From Candidatus Hydrogenedentota bacterium (GTDB taxonomy: Bacteria > Hydrogenedentota > Hydrogenedentia > Hydrogenedentales > JAGMZX01), in the NCBI GenBank assembly GCA_029556545.1, contig JAKQEQ010000023.1, positions 1-64,000 of the forward strand: a stretch of 64,000 bases of DNA. Direction: 5' to 3'. Shown piece by piece: positions 15,855 to 31,902 of this stretch. Below the pieces are notes generated by a model. The model did not search any database, was not told the DNA's origin, and was given only the letters and a program-made list of their open reading frames with translations. The position numbers were made by a program, and so were the translations under genes. Numbering within the stretch: the first letter of the stretch is position 1; every line of letters begins with the position of its first letter.

Positions 15855-17156
15855 TCACCGGGCCAGCAGCAGGGTCACGGTATCGGGCTCCCACGTGGCG
15901 ACGGCCAAGTCTATCTTGCCGTCGCGATTGAAGTCGCCCGTGCATAGCGCCCGAGGGCGGCCTTCTTTCAACGTATACACCTCGCGTCGAAACTCCTGCG
16001 CGCGCGCGGTGCTCGTGGATTGATTGATCATCACGATGACCGACCGGGATTCGTAGCAGGCTGCCGCCAGGTCGGGCCGCATGTCCCCCGTCAGATCCTC
16101 GACGACGAGGTCCTCGATCTGATGCTCGAGGAGGGCGCGGTCCTTGCCGAGCGTCAACTCCTGGGACACACTGAACTGGAAACCGCCGTCGCCGTGGAAT
16201 ACGACGATGCTGTCGTCCGTGTGCCCGTGCGAGACCGCCAGGTCCGCGACGCCATCCTGGTTTATGTCCGCAACGCGAATCCTGTTGGGAAGCCGCCCGC
16301 GCGTCAGGAATCGACTTATCGGATCAAAAGCCCCTTGGCCGTCACCGCGCCATAATCCGATTTCGCCCGTGGTGTGGAATACGACGGCCAAGTCGAGGTT
16401 GCCGTCGCAGTCGAAATCCGCGATTTGCACGTCCCGTGGCCCGCCCGGAGCCGGAAGGTACTGCGGCGCTCCAAAATACAATTGCGGGTCGCCTGGGAAC
16501 AGCACGAGCGCGTCGCTCGACCACGCCGTCGCGATCAGGTCGCGGTAGCCGTCCCGGTTCACGTCGGCGATGGCAAGAGCGGTCAAGCCGGGCTTGGTAA
16601 AGATGGGTGCGCCGTCCCCGTCCAGATGCCGATAGTAGGAAAGCCCTTCGTCGGGCGCGCGGAAATCAATCGTCTCGAAAAGATTATCCGGCAGATTACG
16701 GAACAGCGTTACATCGCGATGCCGCACCGCGAGGAAACTGACCACCACGATGTCCGGCATGCGCAACGCGTCGATGTTCGCGATCGCGATCGCGTACGGC
16801 GCGAACCCGGTCTTCAGCGACGGATGATGCTTGACGTATTTCAAATCGCCTTCGGCGATCAGCAGCGATAATTCATCGTTCGCGGGTCGTTCCTCGCGCA
16901 GGTCTCCCAGCGGCCCTGTATCCGCCGTAATGATCTCGGGCCACCCGTCGCCGTTCAAATCCGGGGCGACTATGGCCCGAGGGTTGGGGCCGACGCGGAA
17001 TGCCCGGCTGATCTCGAAAGTCTGGCCATGCGCCGCTGCCGCCGCTAGCAGACACAGCACGAAGGCGATCAGGATTTCCCCGCGCCAAGACGGGGCGGGA
17101 CGCCCTACTTCTGTTGCGCGCGCAACAATCGTGGCGCGGAATAGCGCGGTTCTCAT
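15855..17156 (-). CDS. secreted FG-GAP/VCBS-repeat protein
   Basis: A 433-residue exported protein. A signal peptide (hydrophobic IAFVLCLLAAAAAHG, about residues 30-45) precedes a seven-bladed type beta-propeller made of FG-GAP repeats with calcium-binding loops such as DLNGDGWPE, DVNRDGYRD, DFDCDGNLD, DINQDGVAD, DLTGDMRPD and DFNRDGKID. Such propellers bind ligands or partner proteins outside the cytoplasm; no enzyme motif is visible. The ATG at 17156 overlaps the stop of pdxA in an ATGA junction, so this secreted protein is translationally coupled to a vitamin B6 enzyme. That pairing has no obvious functional reason. The gene ends 3 bp from the convergent transglutaminase gene. Confidence 0.88.
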   Translation of the reverse strand: MRTALFRATIVARATEVGRPAPSWRGEILIAFVLCLLAAAAAHGQTFEISRAFRVGPNPRAIVAPDLNGDGWPEIITADTGPLGDLREERPANDELSLLIAEGDLKYVKHHPSLKTGFAPYAIAIANIDALRMPDIVVVSFLAVRHRDVTLFRNLPDNLFETIDFRAPDEGLSYYRHLDGDGAPIFTKPGLTALAIADVNRDGYRDLIATAWSSDALVLFPGDPQLYFGAPQYLPAPGGPRDVQIADFDCDGNLDLAVVFHTTGEIGLWRGDGQGAFDPISRFLTRGRLPNRIRVADINQDGVADLAVSHGHTDDSIVVFHGDGGFQFSVSQELTLGKDRALLEHQIEDLVVEDLTGDMRPDLAAACYESRSVIVMINQSTSTARAQEFRREVYTLKEGRPRALCTGDFNRDGKIDLAVATWEPDTVTLLLAR

Positions 17157-18163
17157 CGTTCTCCCTGCGCGTGCGGGCCGCGGCGTCGCGTCAGCAGGGC
17201 CGCCAAGGTGACCGCCGCGCACAGACTATGCTCACGCGCGCTGCCGCGCCCGGCGATGTCGAAGGCTGTGCCGTGATCGACCGACGTGCGCACTATCGGG
17301 ATGCCCAGCGTCACGTTGACGCCTTCATCCATCGCGATGAGCTTCACCGGAATATGCCCCTGATCGTGGTACATGGCGATCACCATATCGAACGCCCCAT
17401 CCCGCATCCGCCGGAACACGGTGTCTGGTGGATACGGCCCCGAACAGGGGATGCCTGCCTTGCGGCACGCTGCCACGGCGGGCGCAATCTCTTTCTGTTC
17501 TTCGTTGCCGAAGGCGCCGGCTTCGCCCGCGTGCGGATTCAGGCCCGCCACCGCGATCCGCGGCTTGTCGATGCCGAGACGCAGCAGCGCCTCGTGGCCG
17601 AGGCGGATCGAGGTCTCGATGCGTTCTCGCTTTACGGCGCGCACGGCGTCGCGCAGCGACAGGTGCGAGGTGATGTGTACCACGCGCAACGGCCCCGCGA
17701 AAAGGCACATCCGGTAGTCCGAACTCCCCGTCATTTCCGCGAGCAGCTCCGTGTGGCCCGCATACGGATACCCCGCGCGCCGCACGCCCTCCTTACTTAT
17801 CGGGCAGGTCACGATGCCGTCTAACGCCCCCTCCAGCGCCGCTGTTACCGCGCTCTTGACCCACTCCACGGCGCAACCGCTTGCGGCGGCGTCGAGCTCG
17901 CCCGGGTGCTGCGGCGGCGCCTCGAACCCGCCGTCCACCACCGCCACATAGCCCGGCGGCGTGGCCTGAATCTCCGGAACACCCAGCGGCTCGGCGCATC
18001 CTGGCGCGAAGCGTCGCGCGCGCTCGAGCGCCGCGGCGTCGCCGAAGACCACGGGGACGCACGCCGCCGCCACGTCAGGCCGCGCAAGCGCCTTCGCCAG
18101 GATTTCCGGCCCCACGCCGTTCACGTCGCCCATAGTGATGCCGAGAACAGGCTTTGTATTCAT
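17153..18163 (-). CDS. pdxA: 4-hydroxythreonine-4-phosphate dehydrogenase
   Basis: A 336-residue PdxA, the NAD-dependent enzyme of the DXP-dependent pyridoxal-phosphate pathway that oxidises 4-phosphohydroxy-threonine. The family start motif GITMGDVNGVGPEI is at 8-21. The three metal-binding histidines are in ITSHLSL (His167), LNPHAGE (His211) and YHDQGHIPVKL (His266). GHTELLAEMTG is also conserved. The length is normal. The ATG at 18163 is chosen because homology starts there; 25 extra in-frame codons upstream are implausible. PdxA-like proteins also act in some sugar-acid pathways, but the complete catalytic set supports the vitamin B6 role. The FG-GAP gene overlaps its stop. Confidence 0.92.
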   Translation of the reverse strand: MNTKPVLGITMGDVNGVGPEILAKALARPDVAAACVPVVFGDAAALERARRFAPGCAEPLGVPEIQATPPGYVAVVDGGFEAPPQHPGELDAAASGCAVEWVKSAVTAALEGALDGIVTCPISKEGVRRAGYPYAGHTELLAEMTGSSDYRMCLFAGPLRVVHITSHLSLRDAVRAVKRERIETSIRLGHEALLRLGIDKPRIAVAGLNPHAGEAGAFGNEEQKEIAPAVAACRKAGIPCSGPYPPDTVFRRMRDGAFDMVIAMYHDQGHIPVKLIAMDEGVNVTLGIPIVRTSVDHGTAFDIAGRGSAREHSLCAAVTLAALLTRRRGPHAQGER

Positions 18164-18484
18164 GACGCCTTTCGTTGTAGTCCGTCCGGCGGCGCCCGTC
18201 TCATTTCCACGAGACCGGGGACCGCGCCGCTGCCTCAATTCCCGTTATGCCCGGTCTCCAACTTGCCCGCCACAGGCGGAACCGCGCCGCCGCTTGGATG
18301 GCCGACACGAGTGCTTCCGCCCTGGGCCGAAAGCCGCCAGGCATCGTCAGCACCGGACTTGCTACTGCCTCGTGCCCCTTATGATACGCTATACGTGGAA
18401 ACGACGCCAAGCCCGGGACTGTCGCGTTCCACGTCCAGCGCAACGCGGTCCCCGGCGCACCAACGAGAAAAGAAAGGCGCGACA
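18164..18484. other. divergent intergenic region between pdxA and the mazG-like gene
   Basis: This 321-bp stretch holds no gene I can support. TTGCTA (18359-18364) and TATGAT (18380-18385) with a 15-bp spacer form a weak candidate promoter for the mazG-like gene. A GTCTC/GAGAC inverted repeat lies near 18198-18215. Confidence 0.35.
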
Positions 18485-18895
18485 GTGCACCAACCCCATG
18501 ATTCCAACCCAGACGCGCTCGAGGACTCGTGGCGAATTCAGAGCGCCGCGGCGCGAGTCGGATTTGACTGGCCGGATGTCACCGGAGTGATCGCGAAGGT
18601 GCGCGAAGAGACCCGCGAGATCGAGGACGCGTTGGCCGCGGGCGATCGCGAACACGCCGCGCGCGAACTGGGCGACCTGCTGTTTGCCGCGGTGAACCTG
18701 GGCCGTTTTCTCGATACACACCCCGCCAAGGCCCTGGCGGACGCCAATCAGCGCTTCCGGAAACGCTTCGAATTGCTGCGTCGCGAGGTCGAAAAAACCG
18801 GGCGTGACATCGAAACGTGCGCGCTCGACGAGCTAAACGCGGTCTGGGAACGTGTGAAAGTCGTTGCGGCGCAACAATCTAATCAAGGGGGTTGA
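18485..18895 (+). CDS. mazG: single-domain MazG-type nucleotide pyrophosphohydrolase
   Basis: A 136-residue protein matching only the C-terminal, catalytically competent domain of MazG. It has RVGFDWPDVTGVIAKVREETREIEDAL followed by ELGDLLFAAVNLGRFL, supplying the EExxE and ExxD metal-binding carboxylates, and ends with ANQRFRKRFELL. Full MazG has two such domains (about 260 residues). MazG enzymes hydrolyse nucleoside triphosphates to monophosphates and pyrophosphate, clearing abnormal nucleotides. A GTG start at 18485 is preferred: a GAAAGG ribosome site lies 8 nt upstream, and no ATG lies between the site and the domain. The gene precedes the dnaA upstream region; a link with replication hygiene is only inference. 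Confidence 0.83.
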   Translation: MHQPHDSNPDALEDSWRIQSAAARVGFDWPDVTGVIAKVREETREIEDALAAGDREHAARELGDLLFAAVNLGRFLDTHPAKALADANQRFRKRFELLRREVEKTGRDIETCALDELNAVWERVKVVAAQQSNQGG

Positions 18896-19259
18896 CAAGG
18901 GGCGGGATCATGGTGCAGACTCAGGATTCAGGTGTGCGAAAACGCCTGATTTTACGGGCTGAAATGGATCTGTGGACAGGTTGTGAAGAACCTGTGGAGA
19001 AGTCGGAAGGGACGTCATTGGCGCGGCGTGGCGCACACGGGCTCGGGGTTGTAACCGCCCGAAATGGGAGCGCTGACCAAGGGGCGCCGGCCGCGCGGCG
19101 GGGCGTGCGGAGAAGCGCGACGGAGGAAGGCGCCTTTCCTTGAGGGTGATTAGTTTGCTAGTCTAGCGTGCATCAAAGTCAAGCCCGCGGTGACGCGCAG
19201 GGGAGGGCGGCTTGCTTTTCGCGGCGGCCGCACGACGAAGGATAAGGACGAGAAACGCT
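18896..19259. other. dnaA upstream region with two DnaA-box-like sites (candidate origin element)
   Basis: No gene is supported in this 364-bp stretch. Two sites resemble the DnaA box complement TGTGGATAA: TGTGGACAG at 18971-18979 (two mismatches) and TGTGGAGAA at 18993-19001 (one mismatch). They have the same orientation and start 22 bp apart, about two helical turns. Between them is a 7-bp inverted repeat, ACAGGTT and AACCTGT, with a 6-nt loop. A TTGACA at 18892-18897 has only a poor -10 (CAGACT) after 18 bp. Two boxes could serve dnaA autoregulation as easily as replication initiation; no strong AT-rich unwinding region is seen. Confidence 0.4.
19156..19164 (+). promoter_or_regulatory. extended -10 promoter of dnaA
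   Basis: TGC directly precedes TAGTCT. Transcription would start near 19171, leaving a leader of about 90 nt before the dnaA ATG. The -35 position is poor (TTCCTT or TTTCCT). Confidence 0.4.
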
Positions 19260-20627
19260 ATGCCGGTAAAGGAAACGAGCAATCCGTGGGCCTTGGCGCA
19301 AGAGCATTTACGCGCGCTGGTCGATGAACACAGCTTCAAGAACTGGTTCTCCCAGACGGACTTCGCCTCCTACGAGGCGTGCTGCCTCGTCTTGAGCGTG
19401 CCAAGCCGCTTCTTCGCCGAATGGCTGCGCGATCACTACATGGACGCCATCCTCGAAGCCGTCCGACGGGTATTGCCCGACGTCGAGCGCGTCTCCTTTC
19501 GTCATGGCGCGCCGCCCCCGCGCGAGGCCGCGCCTGAGAATGCGCGCCGGCCCCTGCCGGAACCCGCGCGCAAGCGGGCGGCCGCCGTGCAGCATGCATA
19601 CAACGGCTTCAACCCGAGATACACCTTCGAGCATTTTGTCGTCGGCTCGGGGAACCGCTTCGCCAACGCCGCGGCACGCGCCGTCGCCGAATCGCCGGGG
19701 CGCGCGTACAATCCCTTGTTCCTTTACGGCGGCACCGGCCTCGGCAAGACGCACCTCATGCAGGCTATCGGCCAGGAACTGCTGCGGCGCGACCCCGGGG
19801 CGAACGTGGTGTTCATCTCGACGGAGCAATTCACCAACCAACTGATCGACAGCATCGCGAAAAAAGCCACGCAGCGCTTTCGCGAGAAATACCGCAAGGT
19901 GGACGTCATCCTGATCGACGACGTGCACTTCCTCGCGGGCAAGGAAGCCACACAGGAGGAATTCTTCCACACCTTCAACGAGTTGTACGACGCGCGCAAG
20001 CAGATTGTGCTTTCAAGTGATCGGGGGCCCAAGGAAATCGAGCGCATGGAGGAGCGTCTTGTCACCCGTTTCGAGTGGGGCCTCGTCACGGATATTACCC
20101 CGCCCGATCAGGAGACGCGCGAGGCGATCCTGCAGAACAAGGCGCGGGAGGACGGCGTGAGCGTGCCCATCGACGTGATCCGCTATATCGCCACACACGT
20201 GACCAGCAACATCCGCGAACTCGAGGGCGCGTTCATCACCGCCTTGGCGTATTGCCGGCTCACCGAACAGGCCGTCTCCCTGCCCCTCGTCCAGGAGGTC
20301 CTGCGCGACCTCATCGGCAGCGACAAGATACGGCCCGTTACCATCGAACTCGTCATGCGCGTCGTGGCCGAGCAGTTCGACGTGCGCATCGCCGACCTGC
20401 GCGGGCGCAGCCGGCAGCGTCACGTGGCCTATCCGCGTCAATTGGCGATGTACCTGTGCAAGGCGCTTATCCCAAGCCTTTCGCTCAAGGACGTCGGCGA
20501 GGCGTTCGGCGGAAAAGACCATACTACCGTGCTTTACGCCTGCGACAAGTTGGCCTCCGCGAATCGAAATGACCCCGCCGCCCGCCAAACCCTCGAACAA
20601 CTCACCAAGAAAATCAGAAGCGCATGA
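19260..20627 (+). CDS. dnaA: chromosomal replication initiator protein DnaA
   Basis: A 455-residue DnaA. Domain I (about 1-85; FKNWFSQTDF, FAEWLRDHY) is followed by a short Pro/Arg-rich linker and domain III beginning NPRYTFEHFVVGSGN. Walker A is GGTGLGKTH (157-165) and Walker B is VILIDDVHFL (Asp220, Asp221). Domain IV has the DNA-binding signature (RGRSRQRHVAYPRQLAMYL, then GEAFGGKDHTTVLYAC), including the GGKDHTTV core that reads DnaA boxes. The protein binds the origin and melts it in the ATP form. The ATG at 19260 fits the family N-terminus and has a purine-rich AAGGA upstream. def and recR follow on the same strand rather than dnaN. Confidence 0.97.
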   Translation: MPVKETSNPWALAQEHLRALVDEHSFKNWFSQTDFASYEACCLVLSVPSRFFAEWLRDHYMDAILEAVRRVLPDVERVSFRHGAPPPREAAPENARRPLPEPARKRAAAVQHAYNGFNPRYTFEHFVVGSGNRFANAAARAVAESPGRAYNPLFLYGGTGLGKTHLMQAIGQELLRRDPGANVVFISTEQFTNQLIDSIAKKATQRFREKYRKVDVILIDDVHFLAGKEATQEEFFHTFNELYDARKQIVLSSDRGPKEIERMEERLVTRFEWGLVTDITPPDQETREAILQNKAREDGVSVPIDVIRYIATHVTSNIRELEGAFITALAYCRLTEQAVSLPLVQEVLRDLIGSDKIRPVTIELVMRVVAEQFDVRIADLRGRSRQRHVAYPRQLAMYLCKALIPSLSLKDVGEAFGGKDHTTVLYACDKLASANRNDPAARQTLEQLTKKIRSA

Positions 20628-20639
20628 CGGCGGGTGATG

Positions 20640-20666
20640 GCGCGGGCCGCTGTCGCAAACCCGCGC
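20640..20666 (+). terminator. possible hairpin after dnaA
   Basis: GCGCGGG and CCCGCGC form a 7-bp stem with a 13-nt loop, 13 bp after the dnaA stop. There is no T-run after it, so rho-independent termination is doubtful. Confidence 0.3.
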
Positions 20667-20738
20667 GGAATAAGGAGTAACGGGCGGCGTGTTAGGTCGG
20701 GTGCGGGGACATGGGAGTGTGGCCTTTCTTGGTCGATA

Positions 20739-20747
20739 TGGTAGTAT
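20739..20747 (+). promoter_or_regulatory. extended -10 promoter of def
   Basis: TGG precedes TAGTAT. Transcription would start near 20753, so the leader would be about 17 nt and include the GAGAGGA ribosome site. There is no clear -35. Confidence 0.4.
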
Positions 20748-20769
20748 CTCCCGAGAGGAACCAGAAACT

Positions 20770-21285
20770 ATGGCTTTGCGCGACATTGTCTTGTACCCGG
20801 ATGACCCGCTCACGGAAAAAGCAGCGCCGATCGACACGTTCGGGCCGGAACTCGCCAAACTCGCCGAGGACATGCTCGAAACGATGGACGCATACGACGG
20901 CGTCGGTCTTGCCGGGCCGCAAGTGGGCGTATCGCGGCGTATCCTGGTCTGCCGCGAGCCGGACGCCGAGCCGCGGTGCCTGGTAAACCCGGAGATCATC
21001 GCGCGCGACGGCAAAGAAACGGCGGAGGAGGGGTGCCTGAGCCTGCCCGCGCTGTATGCGCCGGTCGCGCGCGCGACGAAAATCAAGGTGCGCGCATGCG
21101 ACCCCATGGGGCGGTCACTCGAATTCGAGGCGACCAACCTGCTTGCCCGGATAATTCAACACGAGTGCGACCATCTTGACGGCATCGTGTTCCTGGACCG
21201 GCTGGACGTGTTGACCCGCCAGGCAAAGCTCCAGGAATGGGAAGAAATCCGCCAGCAATTAAGCGCGGCGGCGGAAACCGCGTAG
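20770..21285 (+). CDS. def: peptide deformylase
   Basis: A 171-residue peptide deformylase, the metalloenzyme that removes the formyl group from the first methionine of new proteins. All three motifs are present: GVGLAGPQ (44-51), EGCLS (87-91, metal ligand Cys89) and HECDH (131-135, two His ligands and the catalytic Glu132). Motif 1 has GP instead of the more usual AA or AP after GL, a known variation. The ATG at 20770 is preceded by GAGAGGA at a good distance; a longer reading from 20689 would run through the promoter. recR follows 19 bp later and is probably co-transcribed. Confidence 0.96.
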   Translation: MALRDIVLYPDDPLTEKAAPIDTFGPELAKLAEDMLETMDAYDGVGLAGPQVGVSRRILVCREPDAEPRCLVNPEIIARDGKETAEEGCLSLPALYAPVARATKIKVRACDPMGRSLEFEATNLLARIIQHECDHLDGIVFLDRLDVLTRQAKLQEWEEIRQQLSAAAETA

Positions 21286-21304
21286 AGGAGGCGCGGGGGA
21301 AGCC

Positions 21305-21904
21305 ATGTTCAATCAGGCGCCGCCCGTCGAGCGTCTCGTCGAGGCGTTCCGGCGCTTGCCGGGCATCGGGAAACGTACCGCCGAACGACTCGCCCTCCAT
21401 CTCCTGAGCGCGCCGGCGGAAGAGGCGCGCGCCCTGAGCGCCGCGGTCCGCGAGGCGCGCGACCGGATCACCACGTGCGGCGTCTGCTGCAACCTCACCG
21501 ATGTGGACCCCTGCGCCATTTGCGCCGACGAACGCCGCGACCATTCCACCCTCTGCGTCGTCGAGCGCCCCGCGGGCGCGCTGGCCATCGAGAAAGGCGG
21601 CACCTATCGCGGGCTCTACCACGTGCTCCACGGCGCGCTTAGCCCCATGGAGGGCGTGGGACCGTCCGAACTACGCATTGACCGCCTGCTGCGCCGCATC
21701 GAAGAAGGGTCCATACGCGAGGTCATCGTCGCCACCAACGCCACCTCCGAAGGCGAAGCCACCGCGCTCTACCTCTCCCGAGAGATCGGCGCGCGCGGCG
21801 TCGCCGTAACCCGCATCGCCCACGGCGTGCCCATGGGCGGCGGTCTCGAATTCGCCGACGACGCCACGCTCGCCCACGCGCTCCAAGGCCGCACCCGCCT
21901 GTAG
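21305..21904 (+). CDS. recR: recombination mediator protein RecR
   Basis: A 199-residue RecR. It has the N-terminal helix-hairpin-helix (RLPGIGKRTAERLALHLL), a four-cysteine zinc site (Cys58, Cys61, Cys70, Cys73), the Toprim domain (CVVERPAGALAIEK) and the family segment YRGLYHVLHGALSPMEGVGP. It works with RecF and RecO in loading RecA on gapped DNA. A GAGGAGG ribosome site precedes the ATG. The length is typical. No recF, recO or dnaX gene is adjacent, although recR commonly follows dnaX in other bacteria. Confidence 0.97.
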   Translation: MFNQAPPVERLVEAFRRLPGIGKRTAERLALHLLSAPAEEARALSAAVREARDRITTCGVCCNLTDVDPCAICADERRDHSTLCVVERPAGALAIEKGGTYRGLYHVLHGALSPMEGVGPSELRIDRLLRRIEEGSIREVIVATNATSEGEATALYLSREIGARGVAVTRIAHGVPMGGGLEFADDATLAHALQGRTRL

Positions 21905-22751: not shown

Positions 22752-23381
22752 TTACCGTCGCGCTTCCTCGCGGGCAATCGCCTCGACCTCCCGCGCGTAT
22801 TCCACGACGTTTGTACGCAACCATTCCATGTAATGCCGCGCCAACCGCGACGGCGTCTCACCGACAATGCGCTGCTTCATCGCCGCGAGACGGCCTTCCT
22901 TCCATCCGTAGACGCCCACTGCGGGCACGCCGCTGGCCCCCACCAACACGACGCAGAGCAGCGGATGAAATCCGAAGACCATCCATGCCGCCACCGCCGC
23001 CGCTGTCCACACGGCAAGCAGCAGTGCCGCCGCCGTCGTCGGTCGTAGCCCGATACGTCGCGGCGCCGCCGTCTCCGGCGGGGCCGGGCTGAGAAAGGGC
23101 CGTCCCGCTCGTTCGAGCCGCTCCCGCGCCGTCTCCAGCGGTACGCCCGCCGCCAGCAGGGCGTCCGTCGCCGCCAGCCGCAACGAGGCCTCGGCAGCGT
23201 CGAGCCCCGTCCGCGCGGCCGCGGCCAGCTTCTCGTGGATAAGCAGGGCGAGGAAGCGGACCGACTCGTTTGATCGCGCTTCGTGCGCGCTTTGGATTCT
23301 CGGATCCTCCATAAGTTCGAGCCGCGCCGTCTTCAGACGGTGCTCGAGTACATGGACGACATCCGGGGCATTCCAATTCAT
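22752..23381 (-). CDS. two-helix membrane protein of the dynamin-like operon
   Basis: A 209-residue protein I cannot assign to a family. Residues 1-110 are soluble, Ala/Glu/Arg-rich and predicted helical. Two adjacent hydrophobic helices follow (TTAAALLLAVWTAAAVAAWMV and LLCVVLVGASGVPAVGVYG, about 114-155), then a charged C-terminal tail ending in a run of Glu, Ala and Arg. Both ends would face the same side of the membrane, probably the cytoplasm. The ATG overlaps the stop of the large GTPase gene by 4 bp, so the three proteins are made together. A likely role is membrane anchor or partner of the GTPases; this is inference from the operon only. Confidence 0.72.
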   Translation of the reverse strand: MNWNAPDVVHVLEHRLKTARLELMEDPRIQSAHEARSNESVRFLALLIHEKLAAAARTGLDAAEASLRLAATDALLAAGVPLETARERLERAGRPFLSPAPPETAAPRRIGLRPTTAAALLLAVWTAAAVAAWMVFGFHPLLCVVLVGASGVPAVGVYGWKEGRLAAMKQRIVGETPSRLARHYMEWLRTNVVEYAREVEAIAREEARR

Positions 23382-25558
23382 ACCCGCTCCGCATCGCGCT
23401 CCGCGGTTTGCCGAATGATCTCCGCCGCCCGCTCCCGCACCTCATCGAGCAGCGCCGCTTTCGGACGCAGCCGGGCGAGAATGGCGTCGCATTCGCGGCG
23501 GATTTCCTCTTCGCGGGCGAGGAGGTCGTCGCACTCGCGCTGTACCTGCGAGATCGCGTTGTCCACCTCGGACTGGACCGCCTTGTAGAACTCATTCGCC
23601 CGGCGGTTGAGGTAATCGATGACGATTTCCATGATTGGCGTGGTGCGGCCGCCGTCGGCGTCCTTGCCGCCGTGCACCAGCATGTTCATCACGTTCTCGC
23701 GCACCACGGGCATGATCTTGCGCCGCCACTTCTCGTCGCCCCAGGCCAGCCGCGTCAGAAAACCGCCCACCACACCCGCCAGCGCGCCCAGCCCCGCGCC
23801 GATAGCCGTGCCGATCCCGGGAAACACCGACCCGATCGTCGCGCCCGCGGCCGCGCCCACCAACGCGCCGCTCGCGCTGAAGGCCGCGTAGCTCGAGGTC
23901 ATGCTCGCTTCTATCCCGTGAATGTGAATGCCCGCCGGACTCGCCATGTGCATACGGATGCCCCGCACCTGCATCAACTGTTCGGCAATTGCCTGTCGCG
24001 CCATGCTCTCTGCCTGCTCGATGCTCGCGTTCATCTCCGCCATGATCCGCGAGACGAATTCGTCGACCTGGTGCTCGACCTGAAGCGAAAGCGTCGCGAA
24101 ATTGCTCTGCCGCGCCGCGCGCAGGTTCGCCCCGTCGCGCAGCCACCGGTAAATCGGGACCAGGATGTGTTCCTCGATGGCCTCGTCGCACATGCCCTTG
24201 CGGAATTGGGCCTCGTAGCCCGCGAACGCCTCGTCGCCGACGCGCCCGCCCTTGCTCCGGGCGTTATACTCGTTCAACGTGCGCTCAGCTTGGGCCCGCA
24301 CGCGGTTCAAACTCTCGATCAGCGACTCGCGGTTCGCGCGCAATTCGTCGAATTCCGCCGGATGCTCCGCGAGGCGGATTTCCATATCGAGCGGCGCCAG
24401 GAACCGGTCCGCGCGCTCGCACAAGAACTTGCACGCCGACTCGACGACCGCCCCCTCCTTGTTCTCGAAAAGGAGATAGTCCAGCAGCCGTTCCTTCAAC
24501 GACGGCAGCCGACTCTGGACCAGCAGGTAGTTGACGAGTTCCGCCTTCGGCGCGTCGCTTTCCTCGAGGCGCTCGCGCACGCTCGTGGGCACCGACAGCT
24601 TATTGTCCTCGAGCAGGTCCTCGAGGGTGACGTGGCCGTGCTCGAGTTCCTGCGCCCGGAGCGCGCGGTAGCCCGAAAGAAAGAAAATGTCCGAGTCTTC
24701 GGGAATTTCGTGGCGTTTGAAGGTCTGGATCAGGGCCTTGGCCGGGCCGCGCACGCCGCGCACGTCGATCTCGTCCCGTTCGAGCTTGTCCGCCTTGTTC
24801 AGCACGAAAAAGACGCGGCGGCCGCGCCACTTGATGATGCGCTTGATAAAATTCAGGTCGTGAATATTGCCGACCAGGCCGCTGTCGACGAAGCAGATGA
24901 CGAGGTGGCTCCGCTCGATGATGTTGTAACTGATTTCCTGGCGCGACATCGAAATCGAGTGGACGCCCGGCGTGTCCACGAAGGCGATATCCTGTTCGAT
25001 TACCGCCGACGGCAGCGCGAGCCGCAGTTCCTCGATCTTCTCGCGCAGCGAGGCGAGCCGGGGGAACTCCTCGTCCGCCATGACCGTCACCAGCGGCGCC
25101 AGCGCGCGCCGCATGAACGCGGGCGCGTCGGAATCGAAAGCGATGACGATACCGGGAGCACCCTCCGCGTGCGAGACCCGCGCCGGCAGGTCGTCGTAGA
25201 CCGTGCGCAGCGTCGCCAATTCCTCTTCCGTGACGTGCGCGCCGAGCTTGAGCCGCAGGTCCATGCGGTCGCCGCGCTCGATATACGTCAGCTTCGACGT
25301 GCATTCCTCGACGTCCATTGGCAGGTATGCGCCGCCAAGGAAGGCGTTGATGGCCGTCGACTTTCCCACGTTGAACGCGCCCAGGAAAACGATCCGGTAC
25401 TTGCCTTCCTCGACCGACTTGCGCTGCGAGGCGATGGTTTCTTCCTCATGCGCGCGGTCGGCCCGGAAGTCCGGGTCCGTTCGCACAAAACCGAGCAGCC
25501 GGTCCAATGCGGTCAATACCCACGTCCGATGTTCCTCGTGCTGCTTGTAAAACTTCAT
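23378..25558 (-). CDS. large dynamin-like GTPase
   Basis: A 726-residue GTPase of the bacterial dynamin-like type. The G1 loop is GAFNVGKST (60-68), G3 is DTPG (195-198) and G4 is NKAD (254-257). A long helical region (about 330-555) forms the stalk or neck. A Gly/Ala-rich hydrophobic stretch (about 560-602; GALVGAAAGATIGSVFPG and GIGTAIGAGLGALAGVVGGF) looks like a membrane-inserting paddle or hairpin. The C-terminal helices (610-726) are strongly charged and would fold back to the neck. Bacterial dynamins fuse, bend or protect membranes. The ATG at 25558 overlaps the stop of the small GTPase gene (ATGA), and the next gene overlaps its own stop. Confidence 0.86.
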   Translation of the reverse strand: MKFYKQHEEHRTWVLTALDRLLGFVRTDPDFRADRAHEEETIASQRKSVEEGKYRIVFLGAFNVGKSTAINAFLGGAYLPMDVEECTSKLTYIERGDRMDLRLKLGAHVTEEELATLRTVYDDLPARVSHAEGAPGIVIAFDSDAPAFMRRALAPLVTVMADEEFPRLASLREKIEELRLALPSAVIEQDIAFVDTPGVHSISMSRQEISYNIIERSHLVICFVDSGLVGNIHDLNFIKRIIKWRGRRVFFVLNKADKLERDEIDVRGVRGPAKALIQTFKRHEIPEDSDIFFLSGYRALRAQELEHGHVTLEDLLEDNKLSVPTSVRERLEESDAPKAELVNYLLVQSRLPSLKERLLDYLLFENKEGAVVESACKFLCERADRFLAPLDMEIRLAEHPAEFDELRANRESLIESLNRVRAQAERTLNEYNARSKGGRVGDEAFAGYEAQFRKGMCDEAIEEHILVPIYRWLRDGANLRAARQSNFATLSLQVEHQVDEFVSRIMAEMNASIEQAESMARQAIAEQLMQVRGIRMHMASPAGIHIHGIEASMTSSYAAFSASGALVGAAAGATIGSVFPGIGTAIGAGLGALAGVVGGFLTRLAWGDEKWRRKIMPVVRENVMNMLVHGGKDADGGRTTPIMEIVIDYLNRRANEFYKAVQSEVDNAISQVQRECDDLLAREEEIRRECDAILARLRPKAALLDEVRERAAEIIRQTAERDAERV

Positions 25559-26406
25559 GCGACTGCCGTTCCCTGGGTCTTGAGAAACGAGGTAATAACC
25601 GGAGAGTCGAACAACTGGCGGAACGTCGGGGCGCCGTCGATCGGCGCGTGCGCCGCCTCGAACTCGTACAACGCCACGCGGAATGCGTCGAAGCTCGCGT
25701 CGCACAGCTCGCGGACCTCGCGCCGCGTCCGGTGGCGGTACTCGTTGCGAGGCGTGCGCCGCGCGAACTCCAGACGCGCGGACAGCGCGAAGAAGCGCGG
25801 GACCGCTTCGATCCCATATGCGCGCAGACGGTTCGGGGCCTTCTCGCTGATGCGGCGAATCTCGCTCGCGTTCAGGTGGTCCGCCTTGTTCGCCACCATG
25901 ACCAGCGAGTCGCCGAAAACCGGAAGATGGCTCTTCACAAAATCGAGCGTGTGCCGCGCCGCCCAGTACTCGATATCCGTTACCACCACAAGCATCGCCT
26001 TGTCCGGCGTCGCCAGGTGCGACACGTCGATGGTCTCGCAGGCGTCGCTCGAAGCCCCCGCCGTGTCGATGAGGACCAGGTTCGAGAACGGTATCGCGGG
26101 CAGGCGCGCGCCCATGAGGATGTAACCGGCCTCATTGTTGCGGTCCTGACGGATGTCGAAGAATTCGTCCTGCCCCTTCTCATCCACCCGGCCTTTCTCG
26201 GGCAGATACGCCGCGAAATGGGCTTCCGCCCGGTCCGTGCGCGTGACGAACGTCGGGAGCGCCCGGCTCTCCTCGCGGCTGGCGAACAGCGCCTCGCGCC
26301 GCAGCAAAGCGTTGATCAGCGACGATTTCCCGACGTTGAAATCGCCCATGAACAACACGCACGGCGCCTGCTGCGCCGCCGCGCCGCCGATGTCGAGTGT
26401 GGCCAT
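25555..26406 (-). CDS. small dynamin-family-type GTPase (first gene of the operon)
   Basis: A 283-residue GTPase. G1 is GDFNVGKSS (21-29), G3 is DTAG (114-117) and G4 is NKAD (173-176); the FNVGKS core is shared with the large GTPase downstream, suggesting common ancestry. The GTPase domain takes up about 200 residues, and the remaining 80 are helical without a clear membrane segment. It is therefore much shorter than a full dynamin and may form a hetero-oligomer with the large partner. Paired dynamin-like genes are known in other bacteria (DynA/DynB, LeoABC, Campylobacter DLP1/2). Its ATG is about 98 nt after a predicted transcription start. It heads the three-gene operon. Confidence 0.85.
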   Translation of the reverse strand: MATLDIGGAAAQQAPCVLFMGDFNVGKSSLINALLRREALFASREESRALPTFVTRTDRAEAHFAAYLPEKGRVDEKGQDEFFDIRQDRNNEAGYILMGARLPAIPFSNLVLIDTAGASSDACETIDVSHLATPDKAMLVVVTDIEYWAARHTLDFVKSHLPVFGDSLVMVANKADHLNASEIRRISEKAPNRLRAYGIEAVPRFFALSARLEFARRTPRNEYRHRTRREVRELCDASFDAFRVALYEFEAAHAPIDGAPTFRQLFDSPVITSFLKTQGTAVA

Positions 26407-30001: not shown

Positions 30002-30541
30002 CTAACCCCGGTCCGGACGCGCGATTTGTTGCTTGAGGTCGTCCGTGAGCGCGTCCCACAGACGAGGATGCGTTTCCACAAGCCGCGCGATGTCCGCGAG
30101 ATCCTTGATGCGCTTGCTCTGGCGCCGGGACGGTTCCGACCACGCCTTGATCTTGCCGCGAAACGTGTCCTCGAGCGCGGCCACGCGCAGGAGGATGCCA
30201 TGGACATCCGCGGCGACAGCCCGAGACGGGAAATCCCTATAGAAATCCTCGGTGCTGAGTTGGATGCTCACCGCCGAATGGCCTTGGAAATTGACGGACC
30301 AGTCAAACCGCTCCGAGCGAAAGCCCGCCGCTTCGAGAGCAGAGACCGCCCGCGCGATGGCGTCCGCCGCCACGACGATGTCCACGTCCTGGGTGACGAT
30401 GGGGTGCTCCGCCCAGTGGTTGACCGCCACGCCGTCGATGGCGCACCAGGCGACGTCCGCCCGCTCAAGACAATCCACGAGCCGCATCACGTCGTTTGTG
30501 CCGCCCGAGGTCTGCCAATCAAAGAATTGTTTCGCCGTCAT
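30002..30541 (-). CDS. nucleotidyltransferase-superfamily protein (AbiEii/MNT-like), orphan
   Basis: A 179-residue protein with the minimal nucleotidyltransferase core. AIDGVAVNHW stands in place of the usual GG loop, followed by TQDVDIVV with the two metal-binding aspartates. Later residues (LEDTFRGKIKAW, RIKDLADIARLVE) match the helical end of AbiEii and related proteins. Members include toxins that modify tRNA, and housekeeping nucleotide adding enzymes. No antitoxin-like gene is adjacent (the upstream neighbour on this strand is a BNR protein gene 56 bp away), so a toxin role is not supported. The ATG at 30541 is where homology begins. Confidence 0.65.
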   Translation of the reverse strand: MTAKQFFDWQTSGGTNDVMRLVDCLERADVAWCAIDGVAVNHWAEHPIVTQDVDIVVAADAIARAVSALEAAGFRSERFDWSVNFQGHSAVSIQLSTEDFYRDFPSRAVAADVHGILLRVAALEDTFRGKIKAWSEPSRRQSKRIKDLADIARLVETHPRLWDALTDDLKQQIARPDRG

Positions 30542-30597
30542 GCCCTTGAGCGTATCAGATGGCCCGGTTCGTTGCCATTTTCGGGCGACAAGCGCCG

Positions 30598-31902
30598 TTA
30601 CTCCGATACCCGGTAGAGCCGCAGCATGACCGGTTCCGGCCACGGCGGGTCGCGGGGCCGGTCGCGATTCGGTCCGAGCGTCTCCCAACGCAGCAGATAG
30701 CGGACGCCGTCGGCCTCCGCGCGCCCGGCATCGTATGCGAAACGCGCGCTCATGCCGGGAAAGGACGATTCCGCGCGCCGCAGTTCCGAGGGAATGCCCG
30801 AAGGCGCGGACGGGATACGCTCGATGGCCTGCAAGGTGTCGGGATCGAGACGAAACCGGCCCGAGCCCTCGCGGTCGTGGCTGAACGGGAGCAGGAGCGC
30901 GCCGCCCGTGTCCGGGGCTACCGCGCTGACCCGTATCTCGAAGGGGATACTGCCCCGCCCGCTGAACTCCCAGCGATACGTCCAGTTGCTCACGCTCACG
31001 CGCCGCCAGCCGTCCGCCTCCCGCCGCGCAACATAGAGTTGGGTGAACCCTTGCGCGTCATGCTTGTGATAACTGATGACCACGCGGCCCGCGCCGTCGA
31101 ACCCAATCCTCGCGTTGCCGTTGATGATTCCGCCGCCCTCCGGCACGGGATCGACACCCTCCGACGTTGCCAGCGTGATCGGCAACGTGTACGGCGCGCC
31201 GTCGCTGCACTCCCAGTGTACGAGATCCTTGCTCCGCGCATACGAGAGATCGTGGTTCGTCTCGCAATCGGGCGATTCGCGCCACACCCAGCACAGGTGA
31301 AAGTAACCGTCCGGTCCCGCCACTGGTCCTTCGAAATAAGCGTTGCGCGCGCCTTCGCCGTCCGTGAGCGGCTTCTCAAGCAGCCGCCGCCATGCCCGCG
31401 TCTCGACGTCGTAGGCATTGAATATTTCGTTGCCGGAACCGCTGCGCCCGTCGCGATAAAGGAAGACAAGTTCCCCGGCGGGGCCTCTCAGAAAGCGAGG
31501 ATAGGTCACCATTTGCTCGTCGCGCCCGACCATCGCCGGGACTCGGACCAGCGACGCCGCGTCGAACGGCTTCTCGGACCGGTAGTAGATGAGCGGCACA
31601 CAGTGCATGTTGCCGGACAGGTGAAGAAACCCCGCGTCGTCCAGCGCCATCGTGACGGAGTTATGGCTGTCCCAGCCGATCTCCTGATCGAGCCGCGTCA
31701 AGCGCCACGCGCTCTCCTCCAACGCGCGCTGGGCCACGGTCATGCGGCGCTCCGCGTCGTAAAACGCGACGAACTGATGCGGCGGCGCGGTCAGGAGGCA
31801 AAACCCCACGGGATGGCCCGACCAGACCGGCGCCACGTCGAGCGCGGCCTCGACACTCGCCGACGGCAGCCCTATAAGCAGTGCGAAAATTAGCATGATC
31901 AT
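30598..31902 (-). CDS. secreted BNR_4 repeat protein (putative polysaccharide-acting beta-propeller)
   Basis: A 434-residue exported protein with an N-terminal signal peptide (MLIFALLIGLPSASVEA). The body is a beta-propeller of the BNR_4 group: GWDSHNSVTMALDDAGFLHLSGN, YPRFLRGPAGELVFLYRDG and GNARIGFDGAGRVVISYHKHD are typical repeats with the His-Asn and Asp-Gly patterns. Relatives include polysaccharide lyases of families PL24 and PL25 and exo-acting rhamnosidase-like proteins. The residue set is too diverged to name the substrate. The gene belongs to a minus-strand block of sugar-active genes. A TATGCT -10 lies about 41 bp upstream. Confidence 0.75.
   Translation of the reverse strand: MIMLIFALLIGLPSASVEAALDVAPVWSGHPVGFCLLTAPPHQFVAFYDAERRMTVAQRALEESAWRLTRLDQEIGWDSHNSVTMALDDAGFLHLSGNMHCVPLIYYRSEKPFDAASLVRVPAMVGRDEQMVTYPRFLRGPAGELVFLYRDGRSGSGNEIFNAYDVETRAWRRLLEKPLTDGEGARNAYFEGPVAGPDGYFHLCWVWRESPDCETNHDLSYARSKDLVHWECSDGAPYTLPITLATSEGVDPVPEGGGIINGNARIGFDGAGRVVISYHKHDAQGFTQLYVARREADGWRRVSVSNWTYRWEFSGRGSIPFEIRVSAVAPDTGGALLLPFSHDREGSGRFRLDPDTLQAIERIPSAPSGIPSELRRAESSFPGMSARFAYDAGRAEADGVRYLLRWETLGPNRDRPRDPPWPEPVMLRLYRVSE

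Follow-up and report, generated by a model that had tools for sequence, protein, structure and literature searches.

The window analysed here, a stretch of 64,000 nucleotides from Candidatus Hydrogenedentota, an uncultured bacterial phylum, contains three overlapping genes on the minus strand, which were verified in the order P0001, P0002 and P0003. The first of these, P0001 (26406..25555), encodes a small GTPase of 283 aa made up of a stand-alone dynamin-type G domain and a short conserved C-terminal part. It is followed by P0002 (25558..23378), encoding a dynamin-like protein (DLP) of 726 aa with N-terminal helices, a full G domain, a helical stalk, a Gly-rich hydrophobic tip (~557-602) and C-terminal helices, and by P0003 (23381..22752), encoding an accessory membrane protein of 209 aa that comprises an N-terminal helical domain, a transmembrane hairpin (~114-160) and a long C-terminal helix. 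At both junctions the stop codon of one gene and the start codon of the next share a 4-bp ATGA overlap on the minus strand (25555..25558 for P0001/P0002; 23378..23381 for P0002/P0003), an arrangement that suggests translational coupling. A first-pass annotation of this DNA had given the coordinates, the gene order and both overlaps correctly, but its further claim that the proteins are produced stoichiometrically found no support, as the overlaps indicate coupling at most. No promoter-like sites were found, and terminator-like sites numbered 7 compared to 3.7 expected.

Conservation of the P0001-P0002 pair

P0001 and P0002 constitute a conserved two-part dynamin system. A contig scan with P0002 alone returned no relatives, which were obtained with an alignment query; the named relatives are nearly all Candidatus Hydrogenedentota metagenome-assembled genomes. 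Across the order, represented by a set of 68 genomes (families labelled f1, f2, f8, f9, f10 and f11), P0002 is found in 41 genomes as one copy per genome, with its relatives exhibiting 29-87% identity. The tree of 34 P0002 homologs falls into two sides at 100% support: clade A, comprising 19 genomes with at least 43% identity to P0002, and clade B, comprising 22 genomes with identities of ~40% or less. P0001 is present in 19/68 genomes, which, contig breaks aside, are the same genomes as those of clade A, and in none of the 22 clade B genomes (0/22). Outside the order, a search of 386 genomes gave no full-length match to P0001 and three partial matches to other proteins, whilst on the DLP tree its presence requires a single change.

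In all testable clade A loci (17/17), P0001 lies directly upstream of P0002 and an overlap is kept. The exceptions to this linkage are contig ends: in G030 the contig edge lies inside P0002, in G045 P0001 ends 31 bp short of a contig end and P0002 is truncated on a different contig, and in G034 P0001 itself is cut at a contig end. Since the overlap holds throughout the testable clade A loci and P0001 is absent from clade B, we consider the pair to be firmly established, and the earlier description of one operon with two dynamin-superfamily GTPases that differ in size is borne out. The distances of P0001 and P0002 homologs are also correlated (Spearman 0.81), although this was rejected as a sign of binding because shared descent explains it.

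The dynamin-like protein and its G-domain partner

P0002 matches the Pfam family Dynamin_N at 66.7 bits in the genome search (E 7e-18; cut-off 27 bits) and exhibits the G1 (GAFNVGKST), G3 (DTPG) and G4 (NKAD) motifs reported in the first-pass annotation, which had likewise correctly identified those of P0001 (GDFNVGKSS, DTAG and NKAD). The key G1-G4 residues of P0002 are retained in its 34 homologs, amongst them the G2 threonine, Thr87, which is invariant (34/34). The best PDB match of the P0002 profile is Nostoc BDLP1 (E 6e-27), followed by Cj-DLP1, Fzo1, IniA, SynDLP and the mitofusins. The list also contains some GTPases that have the same G motifs without being related. The structure predicted for P0002 by AlphaFold in turn matches BDLP1, SynDLP, IniA, Cj-DLP1/2 and the mitofusins (Foldseek E 1e-15 to 1e-8, with BDLP1 at 1e-15), so that the same dynamin group tops both the profile and the predicted-structure rankings. 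In the model, helices at ~325-536 and ~608-725 flank the low-confidence hydrophobic segment; this Gly/Ala-rich stretch sits between the stalk helices where BDLP1 has its paddle, and its position and Gly-rich character are kept in the 34 homologs. By profile and model, P0002 is a bacterial DLP of the BDLP1/Cj-DLP/mitofusin kind, with a complete G domain and stalk. The conserved tip and the Foldseek matches also agree with its earlier description as a membrane-inserting type of dynamin, and insertion into or remodelling of membranes through the Gly-rich tip is probable. The LeoA and LeoBC models of PADLOC match P0002 as well (E 6e-21), whilst the cut-off of the NCBIfam LeoA family (NF041922) is not reached (30.8 vs 325 bits).

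Residues of P0002 that are conserved specifically in clade A are enriched at positions 200-300, in the half of the G domain that follows switch II and surrounds G4: 20/57 conserved positions, compared to 30/157 (odds 2.3, uncorrected p 0.018). Over the whole G domain (51-300) there is no such enrichment (p = 1.0). The signal at 200-300 is weak, and although it would fit a partner contact it is suggestive only.

The partner, P0001, matches Dynamin_N at 37.5 bits in the genome search (E 7e-9), and in profile-profile comparison it pairs with the G domain of P0002 at E 5e-22 and a probability of 99.4%; its best PDB match is Cj-DLP2 (E 1.5e-8). The G1 (GDFNVGKS) and G3 signatures are intact in 16/16 homologs and G4 in 11/16. 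At ~283 aa the protein is without a helical stalk, consisting of the G domain and the short C-terminal part in 16/16 homologs, and the C-terminal stretch is strongly conserved (CD.GFDA.R.ALYEFEA). The two proteins differ at the G2 position: in the gapless alignment of switch I, REESRALPTFV of P0001 stands against VEECTSKLTYI of P0002, such that Arg48 faces Thr87. This placement of the G2 slot was made by three alignments, as those with IniA (ESTVLATVV) and Cj-DLP2 (VTFKPTF) also set a threonine opposite Arg48. Across the 16 homologs the slot is occupied by Arg (14), His (1) or Met (1) and never by Thr (0). By the established chemistry of GTPases, a protein without the G2 threonine should bind nucleotide but hydrolyse it weakly or not at all. 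Because Arg replaces this threonine, P0001 probably binds guanine nucleotide whilst being poor at its hydrolysis. In the five homologs from f10 (L058-L062), NMAD or NMTD is found in place of NKAD and Val in place of Thr52, changes that would alter the nucleotide site further. P0001 was also considered as a split half of P0002, similar to LeoC, and rejected as such, because each of the two proteins has the full G-domain layout.

These data bear on the more conventional explanation that the locus encodes a heterotypic DLP pair of the ordinary sort, P0001 being a fully active GTPase left over from a second DLP whose stalk was lost. Side-by-side DLP pairs are the commonest bacterial layout (PMC6104087), P0001 retains its G1 and G3 motifs and mostly G4, and Thr52 could serve as G2. 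Against this stand the aligned G2 slot, without Thr in every homolog, the f10 members, which lose both Thr52 and the G4 Lys, and the strong conservation of the C-terminal stretch, which is unlike decay. We therefore regard this explanation as unlikely, and the description of P0001 in the first-pass annotation as an ordinary GTPase is not upheld: the G2 threonine is missing in all 16 homologs examined.

The third gene

P0003 exhibits two hydrophobic helices and, as had been noted earlier, could not be placed in any family: Pfam, NCBIfam and PADLOC gave no match, comparison with PDB profiles reached E 0.88 and the best fold match of its model in the PDB was the MxA stalk (Foldseek E 0.34), neither value being significant. 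The members of the family gave scattered weak Pfam matches only (best 0.0065). Its relatives across the order exhibit 33-72% identity, with 27 invariant columns in six sequences, and P0003 is a genuine conserved protein. The model (predicted local distance difference test, pLDDT, 87) consists of a helical part, the transmembrane hairpin and the long C-terminal helix. Because basic residues flank the hairpin on both sides in the window protein, both ends of P0003 are probably cytosolic according to the positive-inside rule. We also considered P0003 as a piece of the DLP stalk or paddle and rejected this, given an hhalign probability of 0.5% against the DLP alignment and the non-significant match to the MxA stalk.

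P0003 is found in 7/68 genomes, in each case downstream of a clade A DLP: in both genomes of f1, four of f11 and one of f8, in which the frame is broken. It is absent from f2, f9, f10 and at least two f11 genomes. Of the seven copies, five share 4 bp with P0002, the one in G030 overlaps it by ~1 bp and the one in G040 lies ~230 bp away from it; the homolog in G008 (L057 4594-5237, minus strand) is split in two frames, being either a pseudogene or an assembly error. On the DLP tree its presence needs three changes by parsimony, a count that omits rows without complete DLPs, and P0003 is probably old in clade A and lost more than once. The first-pass annotation had viewed the three genes as one complete module. 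When their co-occurrence was mapped across genomes the adjacency of P0001 and P0002 proved constant at the testable loci, but only 7/19 clade A genomes possess P0003, so that a fixed three-gene module had to be rejected. As the pair persists without it, P0003 is an optional accessory to the pair.

Interpretation and genomic surroundings

Bacterial DLP genes mostly lie next to each other in pairs, and in the case of Campylobacter Cj-DLP1/Cj-DLP2 (84.5 and 71.2 kDa) a heterotypic complex is needed for GTPase activity and efficient lipid binding (PMC6104087); like behaviour is expected by the authors for other DLP pairs (PMC6104087, PMC4159319). Cj-DLP1/2 (5OWV/5OXF) resemble the present system in being two adjacent dynamin-superfamily genes in one operon, and P0002 matches the fold of both chains. 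In the Cj pair, however, each protein is a full, stalk-bearing DLP, whilst here one of the two partners is reduced to a 283-aa G domain that lacks the G2 Thr: the locus shares the adjacent, co-oriented genes of heterotypic pairs of the DynA/B and Cj-DLP1/2 kind, but not the presence of two full DLPs. LeoA/LeoB/LeoC of enterotoxigenic Escherichia coli likewise comprise unequal GTPase genes in one operon and are related to P0002 through the PADLOC matches. LeoC (206 aa), however, is a split-off N-terminal part of a G domain that is completed by LeoB, and a membrane anchor is present (PMC4159319). P0001 holds its own G1, G3 and G4 and the G domain of P0002 is complete, so the arrangement of a split LeoC/LeoB G domain beside a full LeoA is not found here. 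The differences from both systems noted in the first-pass annotation are thus real.

The mycobacterial iniBAC operon also combines two dynamin-family GTPases and one non-GTPase in three genes, and IniA is a fold match of P0002. IniB, though, is glycine-rich and cell-wall-like where P0003 has a transmembrane hairpin, and IniC, described as a homologous bacterial DLP (PMC6715688), is not a lone G domain as P0001 is. Nostoc BDLP1 is the best match of P0002 by both sequence and fold, with a hydrophobic tip at the same relative place, although identity over the structural alignment is only ~16%, and its neighbouring gene encodes a DLP with a DnaJ-like domain (PMC6104087) rather than a lone G domain. 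The septins of the SEPT6 group are GTP-binding subunits without the G2 threonine that act as stable nucleotide-bound partners in a hetero-oligomer; their lineage and assembly are unrelated and the comparison is one of analogy only. As far as its sequence indicates, the P0001-P0002 pair departs from known bacterial DLP pairs by its reduced, G2-less partner, and we know of no such G-domain-only, hydrolysis-dead partner layout amongst dynamins.

The reading that we favour, by a modest degree of confidence, is that the locus encodes a heterotypic bacterial DLP system in which P0001 is a G-domain-only, GTP-binding and probably hydrolysis-poor regulatory subunit of P0002, with P0003 as an optional anchor. 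P0002 would bind and remodel the inner membrane via its Gly-rich hydrophobic tip, its family and fold being indicated by profile and model. P0001, with Arg at the G2 position, would bind guanine nucleotide and hydrolyse it poorly; it would most likely dock on the P0002 G domain, setting when the P0002 GTPase is active or assembles, and in this way stand in for the full DLP that forms the second member of other bacterial pairs. By analogy, we propose that P0001 acts on P0002 as the Cj-DLP partners do on each other. P0003, patchy as its presence is, may in those genomes that possess it tether the pair to the membrane or bring the pair there. A more specific and rather tentative extension is that a dedicated hydrolysis-dead partner, consisting of the G domain only, controls a bacterial dynamin in trans through contact between the two different G domains, in which Arg48 may come to lie in or near the DLP active site.

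Several observations weigh against the favoured reading. The loss of the G2 threonine from P0001 is deduced from alignments of a mobile loop, where Thr52, four residues after Arg48 and found in 10/16 homologs, could substitute if the loop shifts. The 200-300 region of P0002 was picked after the data were seen, and its p value is uncorrected. The P0002 model displays modest global confidence (predicted template modelling score, pTM, 0.54), its tip has low pLDDT values, and compared over the full length with known structures it reaches low TM-scores (~0.2-0.3). Finally, conservation of the operon indicates joint function and not direct binding of P0001 to P0002. The question is a relevant one: why bacterial dynamins need a partner is still poorly understood, and here the partner is a G domain alone, without a catalytic residue, yet kept at every testable locus. 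Should P0001 indeed act through its G domain alone, it would represent heterotypic G-domain regulation of dynamins in a minimal, naturally occurring form, for which DLP clade B, working without P0001, provides a built-in control.

Downstream of P0003, after 75 bp that contain no terminator-like site on the operon strand, lies P0004 (21993..22676, minus strand), a possible associate whose product is secreted and has a single F5/8 type C (NedA-like) domain (Pfam PF22633, E 1.8e-6) and an N-terminal motif ELPEPFFGGTP.DYW.PNLEPE. Genes of this family follow on the same strand in 12/18 testable clade A loci, the window included, with up to 5 tandem copies, which makes P0004 a commoner downstream neighbour than P0003; in the fetched flanks, none was found next to a clade B DLP. 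This pattern could reflect a system concerned with the cell envelope or with vesicles, to which the secreted P0004 would belong as cargo or partner and in which the DLP pair would contribute to envelope biogenesis. However, P0004 homologs are carried by 61/68 genomes of the order, including genomes without a DLP, so that the family is independent of the pair and the adjacency may be inherited gene order; we consider such a system improbable.

None of the other window genes tested is conserved beside the operon, and most genes in its vicinity have housekeeping functions (carA, recR, def, dnaA, pdxA): at 17153-21904, pdxA (minus strand) is followed by a mazG-like gene, dnaA, def and recR (plus strand), where dnaA might mark a replication-origin region. 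These surroundings do not suggest a defence island. They also bear on the possibility of a phage-defence or membrane-stress dynamin system of the DynA type or the PADLOC LeoA/LeoBC type, for which the PADLOC matches of P0002 and the delay of phage lysis by DynA in B. subtilis (PMC8844932) could be cited. A nucleotidyltransferase AbiEii-like protein is indeed encoded ~3.6 kb upstream of the operon (30002-30688, minus strand; PF08843, E 4e-6). Yet this is the one departure from the housekeeping neighbourhood, single-copy inheritance of the DLP broadly follows families, the score lies far from the NCBIfam LeoA cut-off, and matches to DLP profiles are no test of defence. A defence role thus seems distinctly improbable, and the membrane-protection role put forward in the first-pass annotation gained no support.

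Other dynamin-like GTPases occur in the order. A separate family of ~600 aa with the P-loop GGTNTGKST is found in several clade B genomes (L137, L138 and L141, in G025, G004 and G013, respectively), on other contigs than P0002 or far from it. In G045 (contig C47), a 1070-aa frame (L139 1333-4542, plus strand) joins a transporter-like hydrophobic N-terminal part to a dynamin-like GTPase (GPMKAGKST); a similar long frame is present in G038 (contig C186), and both a fusion and an artefact are possible.

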